Part shown: piece by piece, positions 28,652 through 58,866 of the stretch
How the letters are laid out: each line of letters starts with the position of its first letter
Position numbering within the stretch: the first letter of the stretch is position 1
Assembly (NCBI GenBank): GCA_035573675.1
Contig: DATMAB010000015.1
Span: 186,001-250,000, forward strand
From: Terriglobales bacterium
Lineage (GTDB): Bacteria > Acidobacteriota > Terriglobia > Terriglobales > Acidobacteriaceae
Direction: 5' to 3'
DNA length: 64,000 bases
Translations under genes and position numbers: made by a program
The notes under the pieces: generated by a model
Told to the model about the DNA's origin: nothing
Databases searched by the model: none
What the model saw: the letters and a program-made list of their open reading frames with translations, nothing else

Positions 28652-29960
28652 AGCCGTCGCTGCGTTGCTGGTGCTGCTTCTCGTTTGCGGCGCGACTTTC
28701 GCCCCCGCCCAAACGCCGAAGAAATCCAGCAGCCAGAAGACGGCGCGAAAGCGCGTGCAGGTGGCCGACGTCTCCGAGCGGATACTTCGAGCGGAAGCGG
28801 CCATCGACAAGCAGGACTTCCCTGCCGCCGAGCGCCTGCTGCTGGAGGAAGCCGCTAGCAGTCCGAAGGACTACCGGGTGTGGTTCGATCTCGGTTTGGT
28901 GTACACGGCCACCGATCGCCGCAAGGAGGCCATCGACGCCTACCGCAAGGCGGTCGACGCACAACCCGAGGTTGCCGAATCCAATCTCAACCTGGGCGTG
29001 TTGCTGGCTGCGGAAGGAAATCCGGAGGCCGCTATCTTCCTCCACTCCGCTGCCCGACTCAAGCAAGCTCCGCAATCAGCAGAAGCGCTGGCTCACGCCT
29101 GGATGTCCCTAGGCCGCGCTCTGGAGAAGGATCGACCTGCCGAAGCTGTGGCCGCCTATCGGGAGGCGTCCCTCTTGCGCCCCCGGGACCCGGAGCCGGT
29201 GATCTCTGCTGCGGCGGCTTTGGAGCGGCAGGGAGACCTGCCAGCTGCGGAACTCGAGTTCCGCAAAGCCTTGGAACTGGATCCCAAATCGAGTGACGCC
29301 CTCGGTGGCCTGATCAATGTGTACATCCGCGGCCAACGGTTGCCGGAAGCGGAGCAGACACTTCGGCACTATCTGAACGTGGATTCCGGCAACGCAACCG
29401 CTCGCCTGCAATTGAGTCGCGTCCTGGTCGCGCAGGGGCGCACGGATGATGCCGCGGCCGAGCTGCAACAGATGCTGCAGGCGGTGCCCGATGATCCCGC
29501 TGTGCAACGAGAACTGGCGGATCTGTACCTCAAGGCCGGCAGGTACTCGGACGCTGAGGGTCTGTACCGTGCGCTTGTCCAGAAGCAGCCCAACGATGCT
29601 GCGCTTCGCCATGCGCTGGGAGTCATCCTGCGGCACGAGCAAAAATATGCCGAAGCGGAGACCGAACTGGTCCGGGCCCTGAGTCTCAAGCCGGACCTTG
29701 CTGAGGCCTACGGAGACCTCGCTGTCACGGCCAACCTGAACAAGAACTATGCGTTGGTCCTGAAGGTGTTGGATGCGCGCGTCCGCTACCTCCCGGACAC
29801 CGCCGCTACCGTGTTTCTGCGGGCCACGGCATTCGACAGCTTGCGCGACTATAAGCAGGCAGCGGAGAATTACCGGCGCTTCCTGGCCATGGCAGCCGGG
29901 AAGTATCCGGAGGAAGAGTGGAAGGCGCGTCATCGCCTGAAAGCGATCGAACCGCAGTAG
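28626..29960 (+). CDS. Secreted tetratricopeptide-repeat protein
   Basis: A 444-residue protein with an N-terminal signal peptide (AVAALLVLLLVCGATFAPAQ), then a basic linker and about ten TPR units (for example FDLGLVYTATDRRKEAIDAYRKAVDAQP). TPR solenoids mediate protein-protein contacts. The start overlaps the uvrA 3' end; ATGs at 28626 and 28638 and a GTG at 28620 all compete. Two short exported proteins follow immediately, suggesting a periplasmic assembly unrelated to UvrA. Confidence 0.85.
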   Translation: MGVTMAVGRAVAALLVLLLVCGATFAPAQTPKKSSSQKTARKRVQVADVSERILRAEAAIDKQDFPAAERLLLEEAASSPKDYRVWFDLGLVYTATDRRKEAIDAYRKAVDAQPEVAESNLNLGVLLAAEGNPEAAIFLHSAARLKQAPQSAEALAHAWMSLGRALEKDRPAEAVAAYREASLLRPRDPEPVISAAAALERQGDLPAAELEFRKALELDPKSSDALGGLINVYIRGQRLPEAEQTLRHYLNVDSGNATARLQLSRVLVAQGRTDDAAAELQQMLQAVPDDPAVQRELADLYLKAGRYSDAEGLYRALVQKQPNDAALRHALGVILRHEQKYAEAETELVRALSLKPDLAEAYGDLAVTANLNKNYALVLKVLDARVRYLPDTAATVFLRATAFDSLRDYKQAAENYRRFLAMAAGKYPEEEWKARHRLKAIEPQ

Positions 29961-29968
29961 TAGGAGCC

Positions 29969-30415
29969 ATGCGGCGGCTGTACCAACTCGCAGGGATGAT
30001 ATGTTTCATCGCCGCCGTCTGCGCGGCCGAGGACGTCACGCTCGAGGAACTGAAGCGCCGGGCGGAGGCCGCTGAGGGCGGCCGGCGTGCCGATCTCTAT
30101 GTCGAAGTGGCCCAACGCCAGATCGAGACCGCGGATTCGCGTTTCACCGAGGGTAAGATCGAGGAGGGACAGGAGGCGGTCGAGGACGCCGTGGCTGCGG
30201 CGGAGAAGGCCAGCAACGCCGCCGTCGAATCCCGTTCCCGCATGAAGCAGACGGAGATCGCACTGCGCCGCGCTTCGCGCCGGCTCGCCGACATCAGCCG
30301 CACTCTGGCCTTTGACGATCGCAAACGCACCGAAGAAGCCGTGATCAAACTGGAAAAGATCCGCACCGACCTGCTGGAGGCCATGTTCGCCCCCAAGAAA
30401 AAAGACAAATCATGA
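29969..30415 (+). CDS. Exported helical protein of unknown function, 148 aa
   Basis: It begins with a signal peptide (MRRLYQLAGMICFIAAVCAAED). The mature part is almost entirely charged alpha helix, with likely coiled coil (AAEGGRRADLYVEVAQRQIE and onward), and a Lys-rich end. The ATG at 29969 is preceded by TAGGAG. It overlaps the next gene by 4 bases (ATGA) and follows the TPR gene by 8. No family was recognised; it was not found as a domain of any characterised protein I know. Confidence 0.75.
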   Translation: MRRLYQLAGMICFIAAVCAAEDVTLEELKRRAEAAEGGRRADLYVEVAQRQIETADSRFTEGKIEEGQEAVEDAVAAAEKASNAAVESRSRMKQTEIALRRASRRLADISRTLAFDDRKRTEEAVIKLEKIRTDLLEAMFAPKKKDKS

Positions 30416-30954
30416 CGCTTTGGAAAAGGACGATTCCGCTGGTAGTCGTTTGTCTTCTGGCCAATCTGGAGGCCCAGCGACGGCGCGATCCGCTCACCGA
30501 TCCGGAGGTCGACCAGTTGCGCGAGCTGGCGCAGGATCCTCCCAAACGGCTGCGCCTGATGTTGCAGTTCGCCCGTGAGCGCTGGCAGAGCCTGCAGGCG
30601 GCGAGAGCTGGGTCGGATTCGCCGAATCGCGCCCTCGAGGTCGGCGAGCGCCTGCGAGACTTCGGCGCCCTGATGGCCGAGCTGGAGGCCAACGTCGAGG
30701 CCTATTCCCGCAAAGGGGATGTTCGCAAGCCTTTGCGCGAGATCATCCAGGCTACCAATCAATTCAAGGCGGGATTGGAGGCCATGCAAGAGGCCGCCCG
30801 CAGCGACCCTGTGCTCTCCAAGGAAGCGAAGCACTATGAATACGCCCTGGAGGACGTCCTCGACACGGTGAATTCCAACCTGGAGACTTCCCTGTTGACC
30901 CTGGAGCAGCAGGAAGAGGCGATTCGCGAAGCCAAGAAAAGAAAGCGGGAGTGA
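30412..30954 (+). CDS. Exported helical protein of unknown function, 180 aa
   Basis: A signal peptide-like start (TLWKRTIPLVVVCLLANLEAQ) precedes an all-helical charged protein ending in a Lys/Arg-rich tail. It is translationally coupled to the preceding exported helical protein, and both follow a TPR protein, so the three may form one periplasmic unit. No catalytic motif is visible and the function is not inferable. Confidence 0.75.
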   Translation: MTLWKRTIPLVVVCLLANLEAQRRRDPLTDPEVDQLRELAQDPPKRLRLMLQFARERWQSLQAARAGSDSPNRALEVGERLRDFGALMAELEANVEAYSRKGDVRKPLREIIQATNQFKAGLEAMQEAARSDPVLSKEAKHYEYALEDVLDTVNSNLETSLLTLEQQEEAIREAKKRKRE

Positions 30955-31753: not shown

Positions 31754-31772
31754 GAAATTGAAATTCATTTTC
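31754..31772 (+). promoter_or_regulatory. Fur box
   Basis: GAAATTGAAATTCATTTTC matches 14 of the 19 positions of the Escherichia coli Fur consensus, and the central inverted repeat is kept. It sits between the -10 and the start codon of an FTR1 iron permease, the classical repressor position. No Fur gene is in this window. Confidence 0.75.
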
Positions 31773-31791
31773 AACATGGCGGGCTGACCGC

Positions 31792-33042
31792 ATGCTGCAA
31801 TCGTTCATTGTGACCCTGCGCGAGGGGGTGGAAGCCGCGCTTATTGTCGGCATCATCCTCGCCTATCTGGCCAAGGTCGGCCGCCTGGACCTGCGACGCA
31901 TCGTGTACGCCGCCCTGGGTGCGGCCGTGCTGGGTAGCGTTGCCGCAGCTTTCGTCATTACCCGCCTGCGCATCAACCAAGAGTCCTTTGAAGGCTGGGT
32001 GATGCTGGCCGCCGCCTTCTTTGTCATCACGGTAGTGGTCTTCATGGCTCGGGCGGCCCACGGCCTGCGCCAGCAGATCGAGACCCGCGTCGGCGCATTC
32101 GCCAGCCGCGGTTCCCAGATTGGCCTTTTCTTTTTCGTGTTCCTCATGGTGTTGCGCGAAGGCGTGGAGACCGTACTGATCCTCGGCGCCATGTACCTCA
32201 ACACCGACGAACTGGCAGGCTTGTTGGGTACAATCGCGGGGCTTGCGCTCGCCGTCATGTTTGGCGTGATGTTCGTCAAGGGCAGCGTGCGCATCAATCT
32301 GCCCAAGTTTTTCCGCGTAACCAGCGTCATCCTGGGCTTCGTCGCCGCGCAGTTGCTCGTCTCCGGCCTGCATGAGCTCTCCGAAAGCGGTGTGATTCCG
32401 GCGTCGAAGGAATCCATGGCCGTGATCGGCCCCATCGTGCGCAACGACCTGTTTTTCTTCATCACCATTCTGGCGCTGGCGGCCATGATGGTGCTGTTTG
32501 AAGCCCGGCGTCGCGTCCCTGAAGCCGTACCCGCCGAATCCCGCGCAGCCCAGCGCAAGGCAGCCTGGAATGCCCGCCGCGAACGACTCTGGATGGGCTC
32601 CGTCTATGCCAGTGCGTTCATTTTCATCGTGCTGGTGACGGCGCAGTTCATTTATGCCCGCAGCACGACGTCCCTTTCTCCAGCAAAGCCTGTGGAGTTC
32701 GTGAATGGCGAGATTAAGGTTCCGCTTTCCGAGGTCTACGATGGCGACCTGCACCGTTATGCGGCGGAGATCGACGGCGCGACCGTTCGCTTTCTCCTGT
32801 ATCAGAAGCCGGATGGAACAATCGCAACTGTGTTGGACGCTTGTGAGATCTGCGGACCGGTGGGATTCACGCGCGGCCCCCATGGCATCGAATGCAAGAA
32901 CTGTGCCGCTCCCATTGATCCACAATCGATGGGCATGCCCGGCGGATGCAACCCCATCCCCTTGCAGGCCCGGGTCACGGAAACGGAGGTGGTGATCGCC
33001 CGTGCCGATCTTTCCACGGGTGTGAGCCATTTCCAGAAATAG
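31792..33042 (+). CDS. FTR1 iron permease fused to a DUF2318 domain
   Basis: A 416-residue polytopic protein. Residues about 1-270 are an FTR1/EfeU-type iron permease with the two REGVE motifs (LREGVEAALIVG and LREGVETVLILG). After a further helix, residues about 300-416 are a periplasmic DUF2318-type domain with paired cysteines (CEICG and CKNC). In Campylobacter these are separate proteins (Cj1658 and Cj1660) flanking P19. It is the first gene of the Fur-controlled operon. Transport of ferric or ferrous iron across the inner membrane is inferred from the family. Confidence 0.92.
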   Translation: MLQSFIVTLREGVEAALIVGIILAYLAKVGRLDLRRIVYAALGAAVLGSVAAAFVITRLRINQESFEGWVMLAAAFFVITVVVFMARAAHGLRQQIETRVGAFASRGSQIGLFFFVFLMVLREGVETVLILGAMYLNTDELAGLLGTIAGLALAVMFGVMFVKGSVRINLPKFFRVTSVILGFVAAQLLVSGLHELSESGVIPASKESMAVIGPIVRNDLFFFITILALAAMMVLFEARRRVPEAVPAESRAAQRKAAWNARRERLWMGSVYASAFIFIVLVTAQFIYARSTTSLSPAKPVEFVNGEIKVPLSEVYDGDLHRYAAEIDGATVRFLLYQKPDGTIATVLDACEICGPVGFTRGPHGIECKNCAAPIDPQSMGMPGGCNPIPLQARVTETEVVIARADLSTGVSHFQK

Positions 33043-33044
33043 CC

Positions 33045-34310
33045 ATGTTCGCCCGCCTCCTGTACGAGTCGTTCCGCCGTCAGCGCAGGCGCAAGCTGCT
33101 GGCCGGCCTCTCCGTGACGCTGGGCGTGGCCGTGATGACCGCCATGATTGCCGTGGCCACCGCGGTAGGTGACAAGATCAATCGCGAGCTTCGCCAGTAC
33201 GGCGCAAACCTGGTCGTGTATCCGCACGAGGACACGCTGGATGTCGATGTCGGCGGCGTCAACCTCAAGCCTGCGAGCGAAGGCGCTTATCTTAGTGAAG
33301 CCGACCTGCCCAAGATCAAAGGCATCTTCTGGCGACACAACGTCCTCGGATTTGCGCCCTTCCTGCCAGTCACGGCGCGCCTGGAGACGGCTGCAGGAGC
33401 GCGCGAGGTGGAGCTGCTCGGCACCTATTTTTCCAAGACCCTTACCTACGGCAAGGACCAGTTCACGACCGGAGTGCGAACCACGCACCCCTGGTGGAGT
33501 GTGCGCGGCTTTTGGCCGGCAGATGACTCTCAGGACGTCCTTGTCGGCGAGCGGCTGGCCGCTGCTCTCCGGGTGAATGCGGGCTCGACGGTTCGCCTCG
33601 ACGGCCGCGACGTGCGCGTAGCCGGACTTCTCTCCACCGGCGACGCCCAGGAAGACACGGTGGTGGCGCCGTTGGCTCTGGCGCAGCAGATAGCCCGGCG
33701 TCCCGGCGCCGTGCGGCGCGTGTTTGTGAGCGCCCTTACCAGCCCGGAGGACGCGTTTGCCCGCCGCGACCCTGCCAGCATGACGCCCGCCGACCGCGAC
33801 CGGTGGTATTGCACGCCCTATGCCCTCTCCATCGCGTATCAACTGCGCGAAGTGATCGGCCAGTCCGATGCCGAGCCCATCCGACAGGTGGCGCAGAACG
33901 AAGGCAAGGTCCTCGAGCGGATCAGAAGCCTCATGCTGCTGGTCGCGCTGGCGGCGCTCGTGGCTTCCGCACTGGCCGTCTTCGCGGCTATGGCCACCGC
34001 ACTGCTGGAGCGGCGGCGCGAAGTCGGATTGATGCGCGCCCTGGGCGCACGCAGCGCCTCTGTGGCTGCTCTCTTCATTGCGGAAGCTTGCCTGCTTGCC
34101 CTGATCGGCGGGACAGCGGGTTTCCTGCTGGGCATGGCGCTGGCCAGGCAGATCGGTGTGGCGGTGTTCGCTTCGCAGATCTCGATGCAACCGCTGCTCT
34201 TCCCTGCCGTCCTCCTCCTGGCCGTCTTGATTACCTTGGCGGGCAGCGCTGCTGCCATCCGCCGGGCGCTGCGTTTCGACCCTGCCGTGGTCTTGCGAGG
34301 CGATCTGTGA
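33045..34310 (+). CDS. FtsX/MacB-like ABC permease (first of two)
   Basis: A 421-residue protein with an N-terminal helix (LLAGLSVTLGVAVMTAMIAVA), a large periplasmic MacB_PCD-like domain, and three C-terminal helices with the FtsX-type motif REVGLMRALGAR. It begins 2 bases after the FTR1-DUF2318 stop and overlaps the next permease (GTGA). In related operons (Cj1661/Cj1662) paired permeases work with an ABC ATPase to support iron uptake, possibly as a mechanotransducing system rather than an importer. Confidence 0.9.
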   Translation: MFARLLYESFRRQRRRKLLAGLSVTLGVAVMTAMIAVATAVGDKINRELRQYGANLVVYPHEDTLDVDVGGVNLKPASEGAYLSEADLPKIKGIFWRHNVLGFAPFLPVTARLETAAGAREVELLGTYFSKTLTYGKDQFTTGVRTTHPWWSVRGFWPADDSQDVLVGERLAAALRVNAGSTVRLDGRDVRVAGLLSTGDAQEDTVVAPLALAQQIARRPGAVRRVFVSALTSPEDAFARRDPASMTPADRDRWYCTPYALSIAYQLREVIGQSDAEPIRQVAQNEGKVLERIRSLMLLVALAALVASALAVFAAMATALLERRREVGLMRALGARSASVAALFIAEACLLALIGGTAGFLLGMALARQIGVAVFASQISMQPLLFPAVLLLAVLITLAGSAAAIRRALRFDPAVVLRGDL

Positions 34311-35407
34311 CTCGCCGCCGCATGTTGCTCCGCCTGCTGCTGCGCGCCGCCTGGGTGCGCCGCGAGCGGGCGCTGACGGCGTTGGCTGCCTTTGCCGTAG
34401 CCGCCGCCGCCTCAACCACTATGCTGAATCTTTACTCCGACGCCGACGCCAAGCTGCGACGTGAATTCCGCAGCTACGGAGCGAACATCGTCATTGTGCC
34501 GCGCTCTGGCTCAGGCCTCCCGCCTGACGCCCTCCAGCGAGCCGAAGGCGTGCTCGGCGATCAGGGTCTGGTGGTGCCGTTTGCCTACGCGGTGGCCAAG
34601 ACGTCCGACGGCGCACCCGTAGTGGTGGCCGGGACTGACCTCGAACGCGCGCGCCGGATGAACACCTGGTGGCAAGTGACCGCCTGGCCCTTAACTGCGG
34701 ACGATGCCTTGCTTGGCGTGCGGGCAGCCGACGCCCTGGGTACGAGCCACCCGTTCGATCTTTCGTTCCAGGGACGGCACCTGCGCCTGCATCCGGCGGG
34801 TACGGTGCGCACCGGGTCCTCGGAAGACAGCCGCATCTACATTTCCCTGGATCGGTTCTCCGCTTGGACGGAAGTAGGGCCCTCTGTCCTCGAGGTGGCG
34901 GCGAACGGAACCGCGCAGCAGGTCTCCGACGCTGTGGCGAGGCTGGCGGTGGCGCTTCCGGAAGCCGACGTCCGGCCCCTGAGGCGCATCGTGGAAGCCG
35001 AAGCTCAAGTCCTGGGCAAGACGCAGTCAGCCTTGCTGGCCTGCGTGTGCCTGATCATTCTGATTTCGGCTCTGGGCGTCCTGGCAACGCTCACCGCCTC
35101 CGTCTTCGACCGGCGCAAGGACTTCGCCCTGATGAAGGCCCTGGGCGCATCGCAATCGACTGTGAACGCGATCTTCGCCGCGGAGTCGCTGTTGCTGGGG
35201 TTGCTCGGGGCCCTCGTCGGTTACCTGGTCGGCGTGGGCCTGGCGGCGTGGATCGGTCGTGCCAGCTTCCACGCTGCGGTGGAGCCGCGGCTGGGCGTCT
35301 TGCCCGTCATTGTGGCTGGATCCCTGGCTATGGCTTTGCTCGCTGCCCTACTGCCCCTGTCCGTTCTGCGCAGCGTACAGCCGGCCGTCATGCTGAAAGG
35401 TGAGTGA
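34307..35407 (+). CDS. FtsX/MacB-like ABC permease (second of two)
   Basis: A 366-residue partner of the preceding permease with the same plan: an N-terminal helix, a periplasmic domain (about 40-240) and three C-terminal helices with RRKDFALMKALGAS. The GTG at 34307 overlaps the upstream stop; an ATG at 34322 is an alternative. The open frame extends upstream only as a shadow of the first permease. Its stop overlaps the ATPase ATG. Confidence 0.9.
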   Translation: MTRRRMLLRLLLRAAWVRRERALTALAAFAVAAAASTTMLNLYSDADAKLRREFRSYGANIVIVPRSGSGLPPDALQRAEGVLGDQGLVVPFAYAVAKTSDGAPVVVAGTDLERARRMNTWWQVTAWPLTADDALLGVRAADALGTSHPFDLSFQGRHLRLHPAGTVRTGSSEDSRIYISLDRFSAWTEVGPSVLEVAANGTAQQVSDAVARLAVALPEADVRPLRRIVEAEAQVLGKTQSALLACVCLIILISALGVLATLTASVFDRRKDFALMKALGASQSTVNAIFAAESLLLGLLGALVGYLVGVGLAAWIGRASFHAAVEPRLGVLPVIVAGSLAMALLAALLPLSVLRSVQPAVMLKGE

Positions 35408-36588
35408 TGGGGATCGAGCTCAAACACGTCAGCCGCACGTACGTCGCGCGCAGCGATTCCAGCGCCGGCAAGATTCGTGCCCTCGATGACGTCACTCTCT
35501 CCGTGAGCTCCGGCGAGTGGCTGGCGGTCATGGGTCCCTCCGGTTCGGGCAAGTCCACTCTGGTGAATCTGATCGGCTGCCTCGACCGGCCCGATAGCGG
35601 CACCGTCGAAGTGGAGGGCCAGAACATCGTGGAACTCTCCGGGTCCGCGCTGGACCGCTTCCGGGCGGAGACCATCGGCTTCGTCTTCCAGCAGTACCAC
35701 CTGATTCCCTACTTGACCGCGCTGGAGAACGTCATGCTTGCCCAGTACTTTCACAGCATGACCGACGAGCAGGAAGCTCTGGAGGCGCTGGAACGGGTGG
35801 GGCTGGCCGACCGCGCCCGGCATCTGCCCGCTCAACTTTCCGGCGGCGAGCAGCAGCGGGTGTGCATCGCGCGCGCCCTTATCAATGACCCCAAGATCAT
35901 CCTGGCCGACGAACCCACGGGTAATCTCGACGCCGTTAACGAGGAGATCGTCATGGGCCTGCTGCGCGACTTGCACCGCCAGGGCCGTACCCTGGTCATG
36001 GTCACGCACGATCCCGTCGTCGCCCGAATGGCGGACCGGCGTCTCGAACTCCATCACGGCCGCATCGCTACCCAGGAGCTCTACACCATGGCCGACGAGG
36101 AACTGTTCGACGAGATCCTGGAGGAGATGTGGGTGCTGGAGGAGAACGACGAGCTTGCAGAGTTGGGCCGCATCCAACTCTCGGGTCCCCTGCCCATCGG
36201 CCTCGCCGTCGAGCGCATGGCGCAAGCCGGGCTGCTGGCCGCGCACGCGCATCCCTCGGAGCCTCATGAGCACCGGGCCGCCCTTGACCGCTGCCACGTC
36301 GCCATCCATCCCGCCGATTCCGTTCCCCAACACGGCAGCGCCGTCATTCAGTTCACCGAACGTGGCCGGCAGCGCGCCCAGGACATCATCCGCCGGCATC
36401 GTCTCGCCGAGCGCCTGTTCACAGAAACCCTGCATCTGGAAGACGAAACCCAGATCGAGCAGCAGGCGTGCAAGTTCGAGCACATCCTCTCGCCCCAGGC
36501 CACGGAGAAGATTTGCGGATTCCTGGGGCACCCGCGCACCTGCCCGCACGGCAGCCCGATTCCTTACGGGGCATGCTGCCCCCGCTAG
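35407..36588 (+). CDS. ABC transporter ATPase fused to a DtxR-type metal-binding domain
   Basis: A 393-residue fusion. Residues about 1-225 are a LolD/MacB-type ATPase: Walker [38 protein letters not shown], and the switch His in VTHDP. Residues about 235-393 resemble an iron-dependent repressor (DtxR/MntR/IdeR): a weak winged-helix region, then [23 protein letters not shown], a CKFEH segment, and the end [14 protein letters not shown], which is the family metal-binding/dimerisation signature. The C-terminus PYGACCPR adds two cysteines. Inference: cellular iron or manganese could gate the ATPase directly. Confidence 0.88.
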
Positions 36589-36631: not shown

Positions 36632-37864
36632 CTAGTAGAGCTTGAAATCTACTTCCACATTGATGCGTACCGCGACGGGCACGCCGTTCTTCCGCGCGGG
36701 TTCGAACTTCCACTGGCTCACAGCCGCAATCGCGCGTTCGTCGAGGCCCAGTCCCAGGCTGCGCTTGATGCGCACGTCGTGCGCGCGTCCATCCGGCCCG
36801 ACCACCAGCCACAGCACCACCGTGCCCTGATGCTTGGCCTTCCGTGCTTCCTCGGAGTACTCGGGGTCGGGCGTATAGAGCGGACGCGGAGCGGAAACCC
36901 CTCCACCCACCGTAAACACGCCGCCACCGGTTCCGCCGCCGCTGCCGGGGCCGAACCCCGGCCCGTCACCCGAGCCGATGCCACCGCCCGACCCGGCGCC
37001 GATGCCGCCGCCCGACCCGGTTCCGTTCGAGAGCGTCCCCGCGACTTTGCTCAGCGGATCGCCATAGTTCGGCAGGTTCACGTTGGGCAGCGGAACTTCC
37101 GGTGGAACCACCACCGTTGGCTCCATGGGCAGCTTCGGATTTTCATTCCGGACGACCACCGCCGGCGGCGCGAACTGCTCCATGGCGGACCTGGGCAGCT
37201 TGCCCTTGGGCGCCTGCAGCTTGTCGCGGTCCCCGCCCCCTCCGCCACCCCCGATGGTGTCATGAGCTTTGGCTGAGAGCGGCAAGTAAACGGAAACGTC
37301 CGGCGACACCAGCGACACGGTTGCGTGCGGCTGTGCTTGCTTCACCGCCCTTGCTCCAACGAAGGAAATGGCTCCGAGTAACGCCAGCATCGCCACATGC
37401 ACCACGACCGTGCCGGCCACGCCCCGGCTCCGATAGTTGTAGTCGCCCCAGATTTCCTTGACTGGGACCGGCTTGGCCGTCAGCTCCAGCGGGGGAAGCC
37501 TTTCGGGAAACAGCAGGTCGCGCAGGTTCCCGCCCAGCGATTGCCACCAGGGACGCTCGATGTCGGCCAGCGACTTAACCGCCACCGGCCGCGACGTGAG
37601 CTCCAGCGGCGCCTGTTTTTCGGCAATGAACAGGTCCCGCAGCCCCCCTGCCAGGGAACGCCACCAGGGCTGGTCGATCTCCAGCCATGCAACCTGTACC
37701 GGCCGTGACGTCAGCTCGAGCGGAGGAAGCTTGCGGGGGAACAACAGATCGTCGAGGTTGCGACCCAGGCTCTGCCACCAGGGCTCGCGCAGCTCGGCCA
37801 GGAGCGTGTTCAGATGTCTGCTGGCGCCCAGGTTGCTTCCTCGAGATCCCGCTGCCTCATTCAC
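36632..37864 (-). CDS. TonB-family energy transducer with triple N-terminal repeat
   Basis: A 410-residue protein. Before the membrane helix (about 145-165) lie three near-identical repeats of about 38 residues, each with PWW-x-SL, then a DLLFP-like segment, then PPLELTSRPV. After the helix come a periplasmic Pro/Gly-rich spacer with long glycine runs (about 200-320) and a C-terminal TonB domain (YTPDPEYSEEARKAKHQGTV to the end), which contacts outer-membrane receptors. The start is GTG at 37864 with GAGGGG upstream. No exbB or exbD is nearby. The function of the cytoplasmic repeats is unknown. Confidence 0.88.
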   Translation of the reverse strand: MNEAAGSRGSNLGASRHLNTLLAELREPWWQSLGRNLDDLLFPRKLPPLELTSRPVQVAWLEIDQPWWRSLAGGLRDLFIAEKQAPLELTSRPVAVKSLADIERPWWQSLGGNLRDLLFPERLPPLELTAKPVPVKEIWGDYNYRSRGVAGTVVVHVAMLALLGAISFVGARAVKQAQPHATVSLVSPDVSVYLPLSAKAHDTIGGGGGGGDRDKLQAPKGKLPRSAMEQFAPPAVVVRNENPKLPMEPTVVVPPEVPLPNVNLPNYGDPLSKVAGTLSNGTGSGGGIGAGSGGGIGSGDGPGFGPGSGGGTGGGVFTVGGGVSAPRPLYTPDPEYSEEARKAKHQGTVVLWLVVGPDGRAHDVRIKRSLGLGLDERAIAAVSQWKFEPARKNGVPVAVRINVEVDFKLY

Positions 37865-53292: not shown

Positions 53293-54645
53293 CTAGTCGT
53301 AGTACTCCAGCCCCAGGTGCGTGATCAGCGCTTCGCCCTTCAGGTGGCGGAGCGTGTTCTTCAGCTTCATCAACTGGATAAACAGGTCGTGCTCGGGGTA
53401 GAGGCCCGGGGCGGTCATCGGCGACTTGAAGTAGAAGCTGAGCCATTCCTGGATGCCCAGGCGACGGAGGGCGGGGGCACGCTGGGCGAGGTCGAGGAAG
53501 AGGACGAGGTCGAGCACGATGGGAGCGGCCAGGATGGAGTCGCGGCAGAGGAAGTCCACCTTGATCTGCATGGGGTAGCCCAGCCAGCCGAAGATATCGA
53601 TGTTATCCCAACCCTCTTTGTTGTCGCCCCGCGGCGGGTAGTAGTTGATGCGCACCTTGTGGTGGAAGCCCTGGTAGAGCGCGGGGTAAAGCTCGGGCTG
53701 GAGGATCTGCTCGAGGACGGAGAGCTTGGATTCTTCCTTGGTCTTGAACGATTCAGGGTCGTCGAGCACTTCGCCATCGCGGTTGCCCAGGATGTTGGTG
53801 GAGAACCAGCCGTGCAGGCCGATCATGCGGGCCTTGAAGCCGGGCGCGAGGATGGTCTTGAGCAGCGTCTGGCCGGTCTTGAAGTCCTTGCCGCAGATGG
53901 GGGCCTGGTGGCGGCGCGCCAGCTCGTGCATGGCGGGGATATCCACGGTGAGGTTGGGGGCGCCGTTGGCGAAGGGCACGCCTTCCTGCAGGGCGGCGTA
54001 GGCGTAGATCATCGAGGGCGCGATGCTGTCGTCGTTTTTCTGCAGCGCTTTTTCGAAAGCAGCGAGTGAGGCGTGCGCGGGGCCGGGCGTGAGGAAGACT
54101 TCCGTGGAGCCGCACCAGATCATCACCAGGCGGTCTGCGCCGGAGGTCTTCTGGAACTGGCGGATGTCTTCCCTCACCTGCTCGGCCAGTTCCATCTTGT
54201 TACGGCCCTTCTTGACGTTGGGGCCGTCGAGCTTCTTGACGTAGCGCCGGTCAAAAACCGCTTTGCGCGGCTTGATGGATTGCAGGAAGGGTTTGACCCG
54301 GTCCAAAAGTGACTGCTCGAGCACGCCGGCTTTGGAGGCGGCTACGTACATGTCGTCGGGGAAGATGTCCCAGCCGGTAAAGACCAGGTCAGGCAGGTTG
54401 GTGAGCGGGACGAAATCCTTGATGGCGGGAGTGCGCGCCTCGGTGCGCTTGCCCAGGCGAATAGTGCCCATCTGGGTGAGGGAGCCGATGGGGGCGGCCA
54501 GGCCGCGGCGGATGGCCTCGACGCCGGCGACAAAGGTGGTGGCGACGGCGCCCATGCCGGGAATCATCACACCCAGCTTGCCCCTGGCCGGGGCAATCGA
54601 GGCCGGGCGGCGGGCGTCCTTCTTCGGAGCGGAAACACGTGCCAT
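53293..54645 (-). CDS. ino1: Inositol-3-phosphate synthase
   Basis: A 450-residue NAD-dependent enzyme converting glucose 6-phosphate to 1D-myo-inositol 3-phosphate. The Rossmann start is GVMIPGMGAVATTFVAGVEA. The family blocks WDIFPDDMYVAA, FANGAPNLTVDIPAM, GKDFKTGQTLLKT and DIFGWLGYPMQIKVDFLCRDSILAAP are all visible, with the catalytic Lys residues in the latter two. Inositol may go to phospholipids or osmolytes. It is divergent from the SDR gene. Confidence 0.96.
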   Translation of the reverse strand: MARVSAPKKDARRPASIAPARGKLGVMIPGMGAVATTFVAGVEAIRRGLAAPIGSLTQMGTIRLGKRTEARTPAIKDFVPLTNLPDLVFTGWDIFPDDMYVAASKAGVLEQSLLDRVKPFLQSIKPRKAVFDRRYVKKLDGPNVKKGRNKMELAEQVREDIRQFQKTSGADRLVMIWCGSTEVFLTPGPAHASLAAFEKALQKNDDSIAPSMIYAYAALQEGVPFANGAPNLTVDIPAMHELARRHQAPICGKDFKTGQTLLKTILAPGFKARMIGLHGWFSTNILGNRDGEVLDDPESFKTKEESKLSVLEQILQPELYPALYQGFHHKVRINYYPPRGDNKEGWDNIDIFGWLGYPMQIKVDFLCRDSILAAPIVLDLVLFLDLAQRAPALRRLGIQEWLSFYFKSPMTAPGLYPEHDLFIQLMKLKNTLRHLKGEALITHLGLEYYD

Positions 54646-54740
54646 GCGAGCGGGTCCTACCTAGTGAATTTGGACGGGATGGACAAACCAAGTATCTTCT
54701 CGTATCGAATGGGGATTTGCAAATTGGTGTTGCTCCTCAG

Positions 54741-54802
54741 GGGCTAAAGCCCGCATTCATGAGCGGCCTTTCGGCACGGCTGAAGCCGTGCCCTGATACG
54801 AA
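54741..54802. repeat. Intergenic palindromic repeat, copy 1
   Basis: GGGCTAAAGCCC (54741-54752), then at 54772-54802 CGGCACGGCTGAAGCCGTG followed by CCCTGATACGAA. The arms CGGCACGGCT / AGCCGTGCC can fold into a hairpin. A second copy lies at 55843-55873, so the SDR gene is bracketed by the pair. Confidence 0.65.
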
Positions 54803-54826
54803 TCGGTTTCTGGCCAGGAGCGCAAC

Positions 54827-55675
54827 GTGGCAAACGCGAGGGTAGCGGTTATCACAGGGTCTTCGAGCGGCTTTGGGTTGCTGACGGCGGTAGAGATGGC
54901 GCGGCGGGGATATCGGGTCGTGGCGACCATGCGCAACCTGGAGCGGCGGGGGCTGCTGGACGAGGCGGCGGCCGAGGCGGGCGTCGCCGAGCGCATCGAC
55001 GTGCGCCGGCTCGACGTCACCGAGACGCTGGCCGTCGGACAGGTGGTCGAAGGCATTGTGCGCGACTATGGGCGCATCGACGTGCTGGTGAACAACGCCG
55101 GGTTCGCCATGGCCGGGTTCATCGAGGACCTGAAGCTGGAAGAGATACGCGAGCAACTGGACACCAATTTCTTTGGTCATGTCGCCATGACCAAAGCGGT
55201 GCTACCGGTGATGCGGGTGCAGAGAAGCGGGCACATCCTGATGATCTCCTCCATCAATGGGCGGGCGGCGACGCCGGTGGTGAGTTCGTATTCGGCGTCG
55301 AAATGGGCGCTGGAAGGATGGAGCGAGGCGCTGCGCATGGAGATGCTGGCACTCGGCGTCAAAGTGGTGCTGATCGAGCCCGGCGCCTACAAGACCGACA
55401 TTTGGGACCGCAACGCGAAGATCGGCGAGCGGGTGTTCGATCCCGCCTCGCCCAACGCGGAACGAGGGAGACGCTACGCGGAGTATGTGAAGACCAAGGT
55501 AGTCAAACGCGACGCGCGTGTAGTGGCCCGGAAGATCGCCGATATCGCGGATGATCCCAACCCGCGGCTGCGTTATCTGGTAGGCCCGGATGCGCACATG
55601 ATGACGTGGATCAAGGCGCTATTGCCGTGGAAGGTGTATGAGCAGCTGATCACGAAAGCGATACGGGTCGCGTGA
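54827..55675 (+). CDS. Short-chain dehydrogenase/reductase
   Basis: A 282-residue classical SDR. The NAD(P) motif is GSSSGFG, the NNAG structural motif is in VLVNNAGFAM, and the catalytic Ser-Tyr-Lys set is in ISSINGR and YSASK. The order fits the ketoreductase/17-beta-HSD-like group. The start is GTG at 54827. The substrate is unknown, and the neighbours (inositol synthase, DedA) give no pathway hint. Confidence 0.9.
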   Translation: MANARVAVITGSSSGFGLLTAVEMARRGYRVVATMRNLERRGLLDEAAAEAGVAERIDVRRLDVTETLAVGQVVEGIVRDYGRIDVLVNNAGFAMAGFIEDLKLEEIREQLDTNFFGHVAMTKAVLPVMRVQRSGHILMISSINGRAATPVVSSYSASKWALEGWSEALRMEMLALGVKVVLIEPGAYKTDIWDRNAKIGERVFDPASPNAERGRRYAEYVKTKVVKRDARVVARKIADIADDPNPRLRYLVGPDAHMMTWIKALLPWKVYEQLITKAIRVA

Positions 55676-55754
55676 AACGTGGTGGCTACCCGGCTACTCT
55701 CGCCAAAAAAGCTACCCCAAGGTCCCTCGACTCGGGCTTCCCGCGCACGACCTT

Positions 55755-55873
55755 CCCCATCGCGCGATGCGCAATGGGGACGTTGCGTAAGCGCGCGGGT
55801 CCCTCCCTCGCTCGGGATGACTGCTAAAGGAGGGCATCGAATCGGCACGGCTAAGACCGTGCCCTGATACAAA
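55755..55873. repeat. Intergenic repeat cluster with palindromic repeat copy 2
   Basis: Within a 281-base gene-free gap: a hairpin CCCCAT-C-GCGC / GCGC-A-ATGGGG (55755-55779), the element GCTCGGGATGAC (55811-55822), and at 55843-55873 CGGCACGGCTAAGACCGTG followed by CCCTGATACAAA. The last matches copy 1 at 54772 except for a few bases. The second arm has changed (AGCC to GACC), so its hairpin is weaker. Confidence 0.6.
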
Positions 55874-55956
55874 CCTTGGGAGTGGCCGTTGGCTCAGGTG
55901 CGAGAGCGGGCGAGGTGCTCGCGCGACAGCCAGCGAGGCGCTGCCGTTACTTCATG

Positions 55957-56580
55957 CTATGCGGCGCGCACGCGGTGCTTCCAGCGCGACCAGACGAACC
56001 AGATGGCTCCGGCGGCCAGCAGCACGCCAATGACGGCGTCGAACTCGTGGAAGTAGGGACCGAGGTAGTTCCAGTTTTCCCCCGCCTTCATTCCCAGCCA
56101 GGCGAGACCGAAGCACCACGGCCAGGAGCCGAGGAAGGTGTAAACGTGGAAAGGCACGCGGGGCATGCGGGCGATGCCGGCGGGCAGCGCGATAAAAGTC
56201 CGGATGACCGGCAGCAGGCGCGCGATGAACACCGCGGCGGAGCCATAGCGGGCGAAGAAGCGGTCGGCCCACTCGAGCTCGCGATGGCTGAGCAACACGT
56301 AGGCGCCGTACTTTTCGACCAGCGGCCGGCCGCCGTAGTAGCCCAGCTCGTAGGCGAGGACCGAGCCCACGTTGCAGCCGACGGCGCCGGCAGTAGCTAC
56401 CCACCACAGGTTGAAGCGCCCCGTATACACCAGATAGCCGGAGAACGGCATGATGACTTCCGAAGGCAGCGGGATGCAGGCCGATTCGATGGCCATGAGG
56501 ATCACGATGCCCAGATATCCCGTGCTTGAGATGGTCCAGATAACGAAGCTGCTCAGCCAGCCGAGGACGCGGGCGATCAT
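55957..56580 (-). CDS. DedA-family membrane protein
   Basis: A 207-residue polytopic protein with the DedA/SNARE-associated pattern: an amphipathic entry helix (AIESACIPLPSEVIMPFSG), GCNVGSVLAYELGYYGGRP, and FIARLLPVIRTFIALPAGIARM. DedA proteins are candidate lipid flippases (undecaprenyl-phosphate or phosphatidylethanolamine recycling) driven by proton flow. The conserved acidic Glu and Arg residues are present. It reads toward the repeat cluster. Confidence 0.92.
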   Translation of the reverse strand: MIARVLGWLSSFVIWTISSTGYLGIVILMAIESACIPLPSEVIMPFSGYLVYTGRFNLWWVATAGAVGCNVGSVLAYELGYYGGRPLVEKYGAYVLLSHRELEWADRFFARYGSAAVFIARLLPVIRTFIALPAGIARMPRVPFHVYTFLGSWPWCFGLAWLGMKAGENWNYLGPYFHEFDAVIGVLLAAGAIWFVWSRWKHRVRAA

Positions 56581-56664
56581 GCGCGGCGGCCCGGGGCTCC
56601 GCGATGGTGCGGAGCAGAAGCAATAAGGGTGAGGACCTGCGGGATGGCCACCATCGATGGCCCG

Positions 56665-56892
56665 TCAGAACTCCTGGGATTCCTGCGTGTAGGTGTAGCC
56701 GGGCAGGGTGAAGCCGTCGGCGGTCTTTTCCACTTTGACGCGGACAGTATCGCCGGAAGCGGCGCTGGCGTCGGCGGTGCGCAGCATGGCGAACTGCGCG
56801 AACACTTCCTTGTAGAGCTTGGTGACCAGGTAGTTGCGGCCGTCGGAGTCGTTGCGCCAGACCTGGCCGAGCTGAATGGCTTTCACCGACAT
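56665..56892 (-). CDS. Small conserved-looking protein, 75 aa
   Basis: It starts at ATG 56892 with GGAGG 2-6 bases upstream and is short and beta-rich (IQLGQVWRNDSDGRNYLVTKLY and onward). A longer frame in the same phase runs through the gap and overlapping HemQ region but has no protein-like composition. There is no signal peptide. The opening suggests a small SH3-like or DUF1653-type barrel, but I cannot assign a family. Confidence 0.7.
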   Translation of the reverse strand: MSVKAIQLGQVWRNDSDGRNYLVTKLYKEVFAQFAMLRTADASAASGDTVRVKVEKTADGFTLPGYTYTQESQEF

Positions 56893-57016
56893 CGCCTCCA
56901 GACTAACCAGCGGCGGGCGCCGCGTCAATCGCAAGCGGCGGCCGCTAGAATACCGAGCCTGACACCTGCGGTCCCGGAGAGTCCGGTACCCGACGGCACA
57001 TGGGCGGGTGGATTGT

Positions 57017-57886
57017 CTACTTCTCTGGCGAATAGGCGGGCAGCGTGCCGGAGAGCAGTTCGCCCAGGCGTCCGGCGGACACGCGCAGGCCGACGTAGAA
57101 GTGGCCGAACAGAGCGTAGACGGCGCTGACTTCGTCGAAGCGCATTTCGTAGATGAGCTTTTTGAAGATGAGCGGGTCGTCGGCAAAGAGGTCGACGCCC
57201 CACTCCCAGTCGTCGAAGCCGATGGAGCCGGTGATGATCTGGCGTACGGTGCCGGCGTAGCGGCGGCCGACCAGGCCGTGCTCCTCCATCTGGCGGGCGC
57301 GCTCCTCGATGGGAAGTGTGTACCAGTTCTTGTGCTCGCCGCGACGGCGGTCCATGGGATAGAAGCAGATGTAGCGTGCCGCCGGAATCTCCGGATAGAG
57401 ACGCGGGCGCATGGCCTCCTTCTGGCGCTCAAGGGTCTCTTCAATGATGGCCTTCCACTCCGGTGAGTGCGGCTCGACCCCTTGCTCCTGCAATTGCCGA
57501 TAGAGTTTGGTGGAGGAGTCGTAAAGACCGAGCTCGATGACCGAGAGGTAGGAAGTGGCGGGTTCAAGGAAGTCCCACAGGCGCAGGCCGGAGAGGGCGA
57601 GCTCGGCTTGCTTGAGCTGGTCGAAGGAATCGCGGAAGTGCACCAGCATGAGATCGCCCTTGTGGCCCAGCAGCGAGTAGAGAGCGCTGTTCGAGCGCTC
57701 CAGAGCGGTCAGGGTGGCGGAGGCTTCGTCGACAATGGCGGACTTGTCGGCCTGCGGCAGTTCACGCCACGCCGACCAGCGGAAACGCAGCATCTGGTGC
57801 AGGACGCTTGAGCCTTCAAGGGTCAGCGGGACGGCGAACAGCTCGCCCTGCGCCGCCGGAACCGCGAGTCTGCTACGCGATGCCAT
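57017..57886 (-). CDS. hemQ: Coproheme decarboxylase HemQ (chlorite-dismutase family)
   Basis: A 289-residue protein of the chlorite dismutase-like fold. The motif YPMDRRRGEHKNWYTL carries the catalytic Tyr and basic residues of coproheme decarboxylases, and the distal Arg that marks true chlorite dismutases is not evident. It converts coproheme to protohaem, the last step of the coproporphyrin-dependent pathway. hemA, hemC and hemD lie 2 kb downstream on the same strand. hemG/hemY and hemH are not in the window. Confidence 0.9.
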   Translation of the reverse strand: MASRSRLAVPAAQGELFAVPLTLEGSSVLHQMLRFRWSAWRELPQADKSAIVDEASATLTALERSNSALYSLLGHKGDLMLVHFRDSFDQLKQAELALSGLRLWDFLEPATSYLSVIELGLYDSSTKLYRQLQEQGVEPHSPEWKAIIEETLERQKEAMRPRLYPEIPAARYICFYPMDRRRGEHKNWYTLPIEERARQMEEHGLVGRRYAGTVRQIITGSIGFDDWEWGVDLFADDPLIFKKLIYEMRFDEVSAVYALFGHFYVGLRVSAGRLGELLSGTLPAYSPEK

Positions 57887-57974
57887 GGGTGCTCCGTACG
57901 AAAGTTACAATTGTACCGGCTCGGCGGGAAGTCGTGAATCCGGCCGGATCGCGCAAGGGTTGGAAGGATAAGCG

Positions 57975-57996
57975 GAGACGTTGCAAGCAACGTCTC
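57975..57996. repeat. Perfect palindrome (10-bp arms)
   Basis: GAGACGTTGC and GCAACGTCTC are separated by AA, giving a perfect 22-base palindrome 28 bases upstream of the nth start. It looks like a dispersed REP-type palindrome rather than an operator. Confidence 0.6.
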
Positions 57997-58023
57997 TACG
58001 AACGGAACTGGAGAAGCCCGTAC

Positions 58024-58866
58024 ATGGCGAGAGGAATGGTGACCCGGCAGCCGTCGCGCAGCGGACGCCATGAGCGTGTGGCACGGCCTTCCGACGGAAC
58101 ACGCCGATCGGTCAAGGGGATGCCGGCACAAGCGTCACGGACCATCGCGCTTCACTGGCCCAAGGGGAAGCCAAGAGCCGGCGGGAAGTACGATCCGGTG
58201 GCGCCGGAGCGCATCCGGGAGATTCTCAAGCGGCTCGACCAGGACTATCCCGGCGCGACCTGTGCTCTGGAGCACAGGAGCGCCTGGGACCTGCTGGTGG
58301 CCACGATCCTCTCCGCCCAATGCACAGACGTGCGCGTGAACAAGGTGACGCCGCTGCTCTTCGCAAAATACCCCAGCGTCCGGCATTTCGCGGCGCTCAA
58401 GCCGGAAGAGCTGGAGCCGGATATCCGCTCGACGGGGTTTTTCCGCAATAAGTCCAAGTCCATCGTGGGAGCGGCGCAGCGCGTGGTGAGCGCGTACGGC
58501 GGGAAAGTCCCGGACACAATGGAAGAGCTGCTGACGCTGCCGGGCGTGGCCCGCAAGACGGCGAACGTCGTCCTCGGGACGTGGTTCAAGAAGGCCGTGG
58601 GCGTGGTGGTGGATACGCACGTGCAGCGCATTGCGCGGCGGCTGGAGCTAACAAAAGAGACCGACGCGGCCAAGATCGAGCAGGATCTGATGCGCGTGAT
58701 CCCGCGGGAGAAGTGGATCGAGTTCGCCCACCAACTGATCTGGCACGGGCGCAAGGTGTGCGTGGCCCGCAAGCCGCGCTGCGTCGAGTGCCGCCTGGAG
58801 AACCTGTGCCACGCCGCCGACAAGACCTGGTCCACGGTCGAGGTGCACAAGGCGGCGAAGCCGTAG
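58024..58866 (+). CDS. nth: Endonuclease III
   Basis: A base-excision repair DNA glycosylase/AP lyase for oxidised pyrimidines. The helix-hairpin-helix LPGVARKTANVVLG contains the catalytic Lys, VVDTHVQRIARR contains the catalytic Asp, and the [4Fe-4S] cluster has four Cys in VCVARKPRCVECRLENLC. The first 50 residues are basic and Arg-rich; starts at 58024, 58036 and 58120 are all possible. 58024 is used because GGAGA lies 9 bases upstream. Confidence 0.94.
   Translation: MARGMVTRQPSRSGRHERVARPSDGTRRSVKGMPAQASRTIALHWPKGKPRAGGKYDPVAPERIREILKRLDQDYPGATCALEHRSAWDLLVATILSAQCTDVRVNKVTPLLFAKYPSVRHFAALKPEELEPDIRSTGFFRNKSKSIVGAAQRVVSAYGGKVPDTMEELLTLPGVARKTANVVLGTWFKKAVGVVVDTHVQRIARRLELTKETDAAKIEQDLMRVIPREKWIEFAHQLIWHGRKVCVARKPRCVECRLENLCHAADKTWSTVEVHKAAKP

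Follow-up and report, generated by a model that had tools for sequence, protein, structure and literature searches.

The stretch of DNA that we have analysed, hereafter the window, comprises 64,000 nucleotides of contig DATMAB010000015.1 from a Terriglobales bacterium, and the gene under study is located on its forward strand at positions 35407-36588: an ATG at 35407 opens a single frame that ends with the stop codon at 36586-36588 and encodes a protein of 393 residues, in which an ATP-binding cassette (ABC) ATPase is followed by a metal-sensing module of the DtxR type. Pfam recognises both parts, ABC_tran at 125 bits over residues 26-171 and Fe_dep_repr_C (PF02742) at 90.6 bits (cut-off 27) over residues 317-386, and the latter score rules out a chance or motif-only match. 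A preliminary description of the window had placed a fusion of these two domains at exactly these coordinates, and we confirm both the boundaries and the fusion; the RRHRLAE helix and the 14-residue signature that it had pointed out are both found in the protein. The sequence of the locus suggests an iron pump that senses iron and regulates itself directly, with the metal-sensing half of a repressor carried on its ATPase, where the repressor-derived module has apparently lost its DNA-binding part.

The nucleotide-binding domain (NBD) occupies residues 1-224 (35407-36078, on the forward strand, as are all features of the gene and its operon given below) and is of the MacB/LolD type, with its Walker A/B motifs, signature and H-loop intact in the sequence. 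The module begins with helix 1 (residues 226-246, 36082-36144), assigned from the predicted model and from conservation, which carries the glutamate pair E236/E239 in an ExxE arrangement. It is followed by a degenerate helix-turn-helix (HTH) region (residues 247-274, 36145-36228), poorly conserved and lacking the first HTH helix in the model, and by an insertion in the wing (36250-36297), rich in histidine and cysteine (H282, H287, H289, C296, H297), which is recognised by conservation in the fusions of the Terriglobia type, a label that follows the record titles of the species-wide genome scan described below. The metal-binding and dimerisation domain, i.e. DtxR domain 2, spans residues 317-386 (36355-36564), is defined by PF02742 together with conservation, and contains H331, E335, C355, E358, H359, C370, H375, C379 and H381; the C-terminus (36565-36585) holds the conserved GxCC (C390, C391) that ends an IPxGxCC motif. 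The source genome encodes one further PF02742 protein, a 251-residue regulator with a clear PF01325 HTH.

We have compared the predicted structure of the protein with known folds. The full-length monomer is modelled by AlphaFold with a pLDDT of 83 and a pTM of 0.61; its NBD superposes on that of E. coli MacB (5lj9; Z 30.4, 2.0 A over 223 residues, 45% identity), and the helix of residues 226-246 continues straight from the last NBD strand. The module modelled alone, also as a monomer (pLDDT 90.4, pTM 0.87), superposes with its residues 4-166 on residues 3-140 of DtxR (Z 17.9, 1.9 A over 133 residues) and thus corresponds to DtxR domains 1 and 2, which supplies the structural counterpart of domain 2 that the preliminary description had led us to expect. 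Within domain 1 of the model, helix 1, a helix at the recognition position and the wing are kept, and the first HTH helix is absent. A sequence search of the PDB with the C-terminal piece has matched 26 distinct sequences, with E-values from 1.2e-15 (an IdeR) to 2.3e-4, and domain 2 accounts for all of these matches; the HTH part scored about 1 bit or was unreported in the four alignments inspected.

The metal ligands of DtxR (Met10, Cys102, Glu105, His106) and of MntR (Asp8, Glu11, His77, Glu99, Glu102, His103) are listed in PMC4805248, where the MntR of P. gingivalis is described with a mixed Asp/Cys/Glu/His site that binds both Mn2+ and Fe2+. We have mapped the module onto these sites, using the sequence alignment for domain 2, and for helix 1 the end points of the structural alignment, assumed to be ungapped: E236 and E239 correspond to MntR Asp8 and Glu11, H331 to MntR His77, C355 to DtxR Cys102 and MntR Glu99, and E358 and H359 to MntR Glu102 and His103 (DtxR Glu105 and His106). 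In an alignment of 99 fusions, equivalent to about 25 effective sequences, where the truncated L081 is left out and the window protein stands for L003, the residues E239, E335, C355, E358, H359, C370, H375, C379, H381, C390 and C391 are invariant, position 236 is a glutamate in 97 sequences, and position 331 is a histidine in 94 and a glutamine in 5. The positions that match the DtxR and MntR ligands are therefore conserved, and we infer that the module binds metal; with regard to which metal, the sequence does not choose Fe2+ over Mn2+, and the operon argues for iron. The retention of helix 1, with its ExxE at the positions of MntR Asp8 and Glu11, had been missed by the preliminary description, as had the grouping of the module with a FeoB-associated branch, to which we return below.

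The cysteine and histidine residues of the module bear on two other readings of its role. According to the first, the module would be a cytosolic acceptor or chaperone that passes on the Fe2+ arriving via FTR1, with no allosteric switch, which would suit the six invariant residues C370, H375, C379, H381, C390 and C391, as well as the five residues of the wing insertion, each conserved in 84-86 of the 86 Terriglobia-type fusions; yet the module is attached to the ATPase and not to the FTR1 permease, and its conserved core consists of the DtxR/MntR switch-site positions, with helix 1 retained along with domain 2, and we consider metal hand-over unlikely. According to the second, five cysteines that are invariant in 99/99 fusions (355, 370, 379, 390 and 391) would hold an Fe-S cluster, and the module would report Fe-S or oxygen status instead of free Fe2+, much as FeoC, an Fe-S protein, acts on the stability of FeoB (PMC10710835). 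The relatives of the module that are linked to FeoB speak for a different chemistry, however: the cysteine of their CPH motif is absent in two of 35, but C-x2-EH and ExxE are invariant in all 35, which points to a mononuclear or binuclear divalent metal site and leaves a cluster-based sensor with a rather low probability.

The DNA-binding part has followed another course. The preliminary description had read the module as a repressor minus a good DNA-recognition helix, which holds in a refined form: no match to PF01325 is found in the window protein at E<=1 and the first HTH helix is gone, with a short helix left at the recognition-helix position. The same family is matched by 19/19 canonical regulators (best E-value 1.8e-20) and by 7/35 FeoB-linked proteins (best 2e-4). 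The median net charge of domain 1 is -12 in the fusions (n=99), -7 in the FeoB-linked proteins (n=35) and 0 in the canonical regulators (n=19), these being rows that share ancestry and are not independent. The mean weighted entropy in the fusions is 1.22 bits for helix 1, 1.98 for the HTH, 0.91 for domain 2 and 0.85 for the NBD; the corresponding values for helix 1, HTH and domain 2 are 1.64, 2.68 and 1.40 bits in the FeoB-linked proteins, and 1.27, 1.46 and 1.03 bits in the canonical regulators. On these sequence and model data, the fusion module probably no longer serves DNA.

The operon starts with an FTR1 iron permease that is fused to an FtrD-like (PF10080) Fe-S domain (31792-33042; FTR1 123 bits, FtrD-like 92 bits), and continues with two ABC permeases of the MacB/FtsX type, the first at 33045-34310 (start inferred; FtsX 61 bits, MacB_PCD 54 bits) and the second at 34307-35407 (GTG start inferred; FtsX 69 bits), so that FTR1, FtrD, two MacB-type permeases and the ATPase are all located in one cluster. 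One or the other permease is located directly upstream of the fusion in 97/101 fusion loci, the locus of the window being counted twice; in six fusion loci from other families (“clade B”), for which wider flanks have been inspected, the permeases are found in 6/6 and the FTR1-FtrD gene has been recognised in 5/6. In the source genome, which is 99% complete, P19 (PF10634) has no match and no credible FeoB has been found: the best FeoB_N matches reach at most 59 bits, in frames whose lengths would suit other GTPases.

A Fur-like 7-1-7 box, TGAAATTCATTTTCA, is located at 31759-31773, beginning 33 nucleotides upstream of the FTR1-FtrD start, at a mean expectation of 0.00 across 100 shuffles of the window. 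Homologous promoters have been compared with the Fur consensus, and 51 of 103 reach 11/14 or more, with a shuffled background of 0.9%; the 103 include duplicates, the promoter of the window being present twice and several genomes having two locus ids. The preliminary description had spoken of a Fur-controlled operon: the box at the promoter agrees with this, and Fur control of the operon is, on such sequence evidence, supported but not proven; Fur appears to supply its transcriptional iron control. The palindrome also enters the argument for a bifunctional protein, one that would still bind DNA and, with an idle transporter or ample iron, repress the operon that encodes it. Such a protein would fit the fold, which still aligns with DtxR domain 1 and keeps a helix at the recognition position, and the presence of the palindrome in many fusion promoters, given that the promoters of 12 operons of genus g4, which lack the module, score 9 of 14 at best; but domain 1 is acidic, its first HTH helix is missing and its HTH is poorly conserved, several fusion operons have no palindrome (a score of 9 or less is found for four of the six clade-B promoters and for seven of the Terriglobia type, at L040, L055, L078, L086, L099, L101 and L108), and the palindrome occurs ahead of another cluster that ends with fur, so that Fur explains it. 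We find a DNA-binding role improbable.

The cluster in question follows the only other exact copy of TGAAATTCATTTTCA in the genome, which is located between an 809-residue frame on the opposite strand and genes for PepSY_TM, porin-like, FMN_bind, ApbE and Fur proteins. At this locus (L227, 4515-9123; C15 of the source genome, about 54,000-58,600), the same genes are preceded by a second pair of Fur-like boxes, which overlap, and the porin-like gene has been assigned by eye; the cluster may be an operon for flavin-based iron reduction that includes a Fur of its own.

We have searched for the same fusion elsewhere, as the preliminary description had proposed. In a scan of one genome per species (84,980 species), from which the best 80 of 195 relatives were kept, all 80 kept loci are fusions in a single open frame and all belong to Acidobacteriota by their record titles; the possibility raised by the preliminary description itself, that relatives would show two separate genes with a frameshift at this point, is contradicted, and an artefact of this kind is ruled out. 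In a sample of 297 Acidobacteriota genomes, 125 match the C-terminal module; the best 30 loci comprise 20 fusions and 10 stand-alone proteins, and one further fusion (L172) brings the number of verified genomes to 21, a lower bound that refers to the opened part of the 125. FtrD is found in 21/21 of these genomes, compared with 53/297 of the sample overall. The fusion is therefore not the curiosity of a single genome, and a viral origin has been rejected, with no relative among viral contigs by protein or by alignment. Outside Acidobacteriota, the search consists of the best 80 of 195 in the species scan and of 42 matched plasmid records, whose top one (Pelobacter) has been opened.

A profile search of 396 genomes sets seven complete Terriglobia-type fusions apart at 708-770 bits; the other fusions score 374-436 bits and overlap the ATPases of genus g4 (368-388 bits), which lack the module. 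In this genus, a member of the same family, five opened sister operons run a similar transporter with no module, which is consistent with an accessory role of the module, and in seven others the ATPase match stops at the NBD. The opened g4 genomes might also favour the view that the module is a passive relic, left by a chance fusion and now without a role; domain 2 is nevertheless about as conserved as the ATPase (mean entropy 0.91 against 0.85 bits across 99 fusions), and we regard a relic as very improbable. Our trees, built quickly on 28 and 29 of the fusions, have few starred branches and come with warnings of long branches; genus g4 is nested among the fusions with a support of 87-93, unstarred, and the module-free ATPase L214 also falls among the clade-B fusions. 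Two ATPases are worth describing on their own: that of L214 (122-1135), linked to FTR1, ends in a short C-terminal tail of another kind, which contains a CxxC motif (ACPNCGMNLF), and has no DtxR module, and that of L216 (9212-10240), from an FTR1-FtrD system, has a decayed DtxR-like tail in which CPHG is retained and AC..EH is lost.

The relatives of the module that occur as separate proteins have been divided into two sets: the FeoB-linked set consists of 36 rows picked by motif minus L172, a fusion, i.e. 35, and the canonical set consists of 21 rows minus three (L150, L151 and the second open reading frame, ORF, of L148), plus L146, i.e. 19. The three rows were excluded on suspicion of a permease-DtxR fusion, and Pfam finds DtxR and FeoA domains only in them. 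Among the FeoB-linked proteins, 33/35 are located directly downstream of feoB on the same strand, as against 0/19 canonical ones, seen with short flanks, or 2/22 with feoB nearby when the three excluded rows are counted in; on the same count, PF01325 is found in 19/22 of the rows without CC. IPxGxCC is present in 99/99 fusions, 35/35 FeoB-linked proteins and 0/19 canonical regulators, where the 35/35 is partly by construction, as a CC towards the end of domain 2 was among the features by which the set was picked; the adjacency to feoB, the HTH and the charge played no part in the choice. PF02742 is accompanied by a FeoA domain in 7/7 stand-alone relatives scanned, and AAA_assoc_C (PF09821) matches 4/35 FeoB-linked proteins (best 5e-4), too weakly to be used; a paper search on this family found nothing. 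In the tree of domain 2 (79 columns), the canonical regulators are set apart with a starred support of 95, and 28/29 fusions form one group (support 85, unstarred) within the FeoB-linked proteins, with L172, on a long branch, elsewhere among them. The pairing extends beyond the phylum to Pelobacter propionicus, where feoB is followed by WP_011733790, annotated as a “metal-dependent transcriptional regulator”.

We read the fusion module as part of a DtxR branch that has moved from DNA to iron importers. In its widest form, to which we give an even chance, this reading would have the whole branch, marked by the helix-1 ExxE and IPxGxCC, abandon transcription and serve instead as a direct metal gate on iron importers, installed on two unrelated machines: beside feoB, probably acting through the FeoA domain, and fused to the FTR1/FtrD ATPase. 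If true, such feoB-adjacent proteins would not be transcription factors and their annotation would need correcting. A natural experiment is offered by L159 (919-1467), a FeoB-linked protein whose HTH region is almost gone and whose ExxE, domain 2 and IPxGxCC are retained. A further DtxR-FeoA type, with no PF01325, with AE..EH and with no CC, is seen at L150 (651-1733), L151 (647-1750) and L148 (1448-2200), with two FeoA stretches in both L150 and L151.

With regard to the mechanism, we favour, at a probability of about 0.6, a feedback of cytosolic Fe2+ (or Mn2+) on the NBD dimer that follows the logic of MetN and ModC, and the control is most likely inhibitory. The fusion protein would be the ATPase of an FTR1/FtrD-type iron uptake system, with a metal sensor of the DtxR fold as its C-terminus. 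As the operon encodes a single ATPase and two permeases, an NBD homodimer is suggested, as in LolCDE, with two sensor modules per complex; these could pair in the DtxR manner, via domain 2, much like the C2 domains of MetN (PMC10710835). In a metal-sufficient cytosol, Fe2+ (or Mn2+) would bind between helix 1 (E236, E239) and domain 2 (H331, C355, E358, H359), locking helix 1, which runs straight from the NBD, onto the domain-2 dimer; helix 1 so locked would restrain both NBDs and slow ATP-driven uptake, and falling metal would free them. The stoichiometry, the binding and identity of the metal, and the sign and mode of control are all conditional in this scheme. Fur appears to supply the transcriptional control, the module keeps the metal switch without the DNA-binding part, and its sister group is located by FeoB; direct metal control of the importer is the simplest reading. 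The interpretation of the preliminary description is thus supported overall: the fusion is real, conserved and placed in an iron operon, and of the readings considered, a putative metal feedback on the ATPase has the most support.

Several observations weigh against this account. The sign of the control cannot be read from the sequence, our searches have brought up no measurement of metal binding, ATPase activity or transport for any member, and the extra conserved cysteine and histidine residues could equally signify metal delivery or an Fe-S cluster. Both models are monomers and the full-length pTM is 0.61, which makes the orientation of the module relative to the NBD unsure. The short helix persists at the recognition-helix position in the model and, in a second set (A2) that holds 60 of the fusions only, 16/60 match PF01325 weakly (23/95 minus 7/35), so that some residual DNA binding is conceivable. 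The three regulator-like rows, L148 (second ORF), L150 and L151, also lack PF01325 at E<=0.1 and have a less acidic domain 1 (-4, +4 and +4, respectively, in the last 57 residues); a missing PF01325 is therefore no proof by itself of lost DNA binding. Lastly, L150 and L151 are located just upstream of a feoB-like frame, and proximity to feoB is thus not unique to the branch with CC.

Further genes surround the operon. Convergent to the fusion, a TonB-family protein is encoded at 36632-37864 on the reverse strand (TonB_C 78.7 bits), and three tandem units of about 45 residues (PWW.SL..L.DL....LPPLELTS.PV) can be made out by eye at its N-terminus; of the 101 fusion loci, 44 have a TonB-like gene as their next neighbour downstream. 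On the other side, the ORFs 30412-30954 and 29918-30415, short, highly charged and with no Pfam family over cut-off, are located upstream of an SprT-like gene.

To our knowledge, it is largely an open question how the Feo and FTR1/P19 systems of iron uptake are shut off at the level of the protein. A metal sensor borne by the ATPase, together with a sister group by FeoB, makes it directly testable with purified proteins; if our reading is true, a metalloregulator fold has switched jobs, from gene control to pump control.

Sensor domains on ABC ATPases are already known; a DtxR-fold sensor in this place and an HTH-less, FeoB-linked DtxR branch have not been found in print in the open-access literature searched, where none of the matches listed describes the fusion or the FeoB-linked group. 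We take the folds of the MetN C2 domain and of the ModC C-terminal domain to be unrelated to the DtxR module. Those importers use a binding protein, whereas the ATPase of the fusion is MacB/LolD-like. What they have in common with the fusion is a C-terminal domain on the ATPase of an ABC importer, which senses the substrate there (PMC10710835) and is predicted to sense metal here.

The closest counterpart of the operon is the P19/FTR1 system of Campylobacter jejuni (CJJ81176_1649-1656), in which FTR1, DUF2318/FtrD, two permeases and an ATPase are likewise located in one cluster (PMC6083913); the source genome differs in that it has no P19 gene, its FTR1 and FtrD are fused, and its ATPase carries the DtxR module. 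FeoC comes from a different sequence family than the module. It is a winged-helix protein. This small Fe-S protein acts post-translationally on the stability of FeoB, through protection from a protease (PMC10710835).

With DtxR, IdeR and MntR (PF01325 + PF02742), the fusion shares the fold of domains 1 and 2, the metal-ligand positions and the sequence of the dimerisation domain, but it differs from them in its degenerate, acidic HTH with no PF01325, in having no FeoA third domain, in the attached ABC ATPase and in the IPxGxCC tail. The DtxR-FeoA proteins adjacent to FeoB, e.g. WP_011733790, share with it the ExxE of helix 1, AC..EH, CPHG, IPxGxCC and the degenerate, acidic HTH, and form the closest branch of the tree; they are encoded by a separate gene next to feoB, carry a FeoA domain in all seven that were scanned, and have no fused ATPase.

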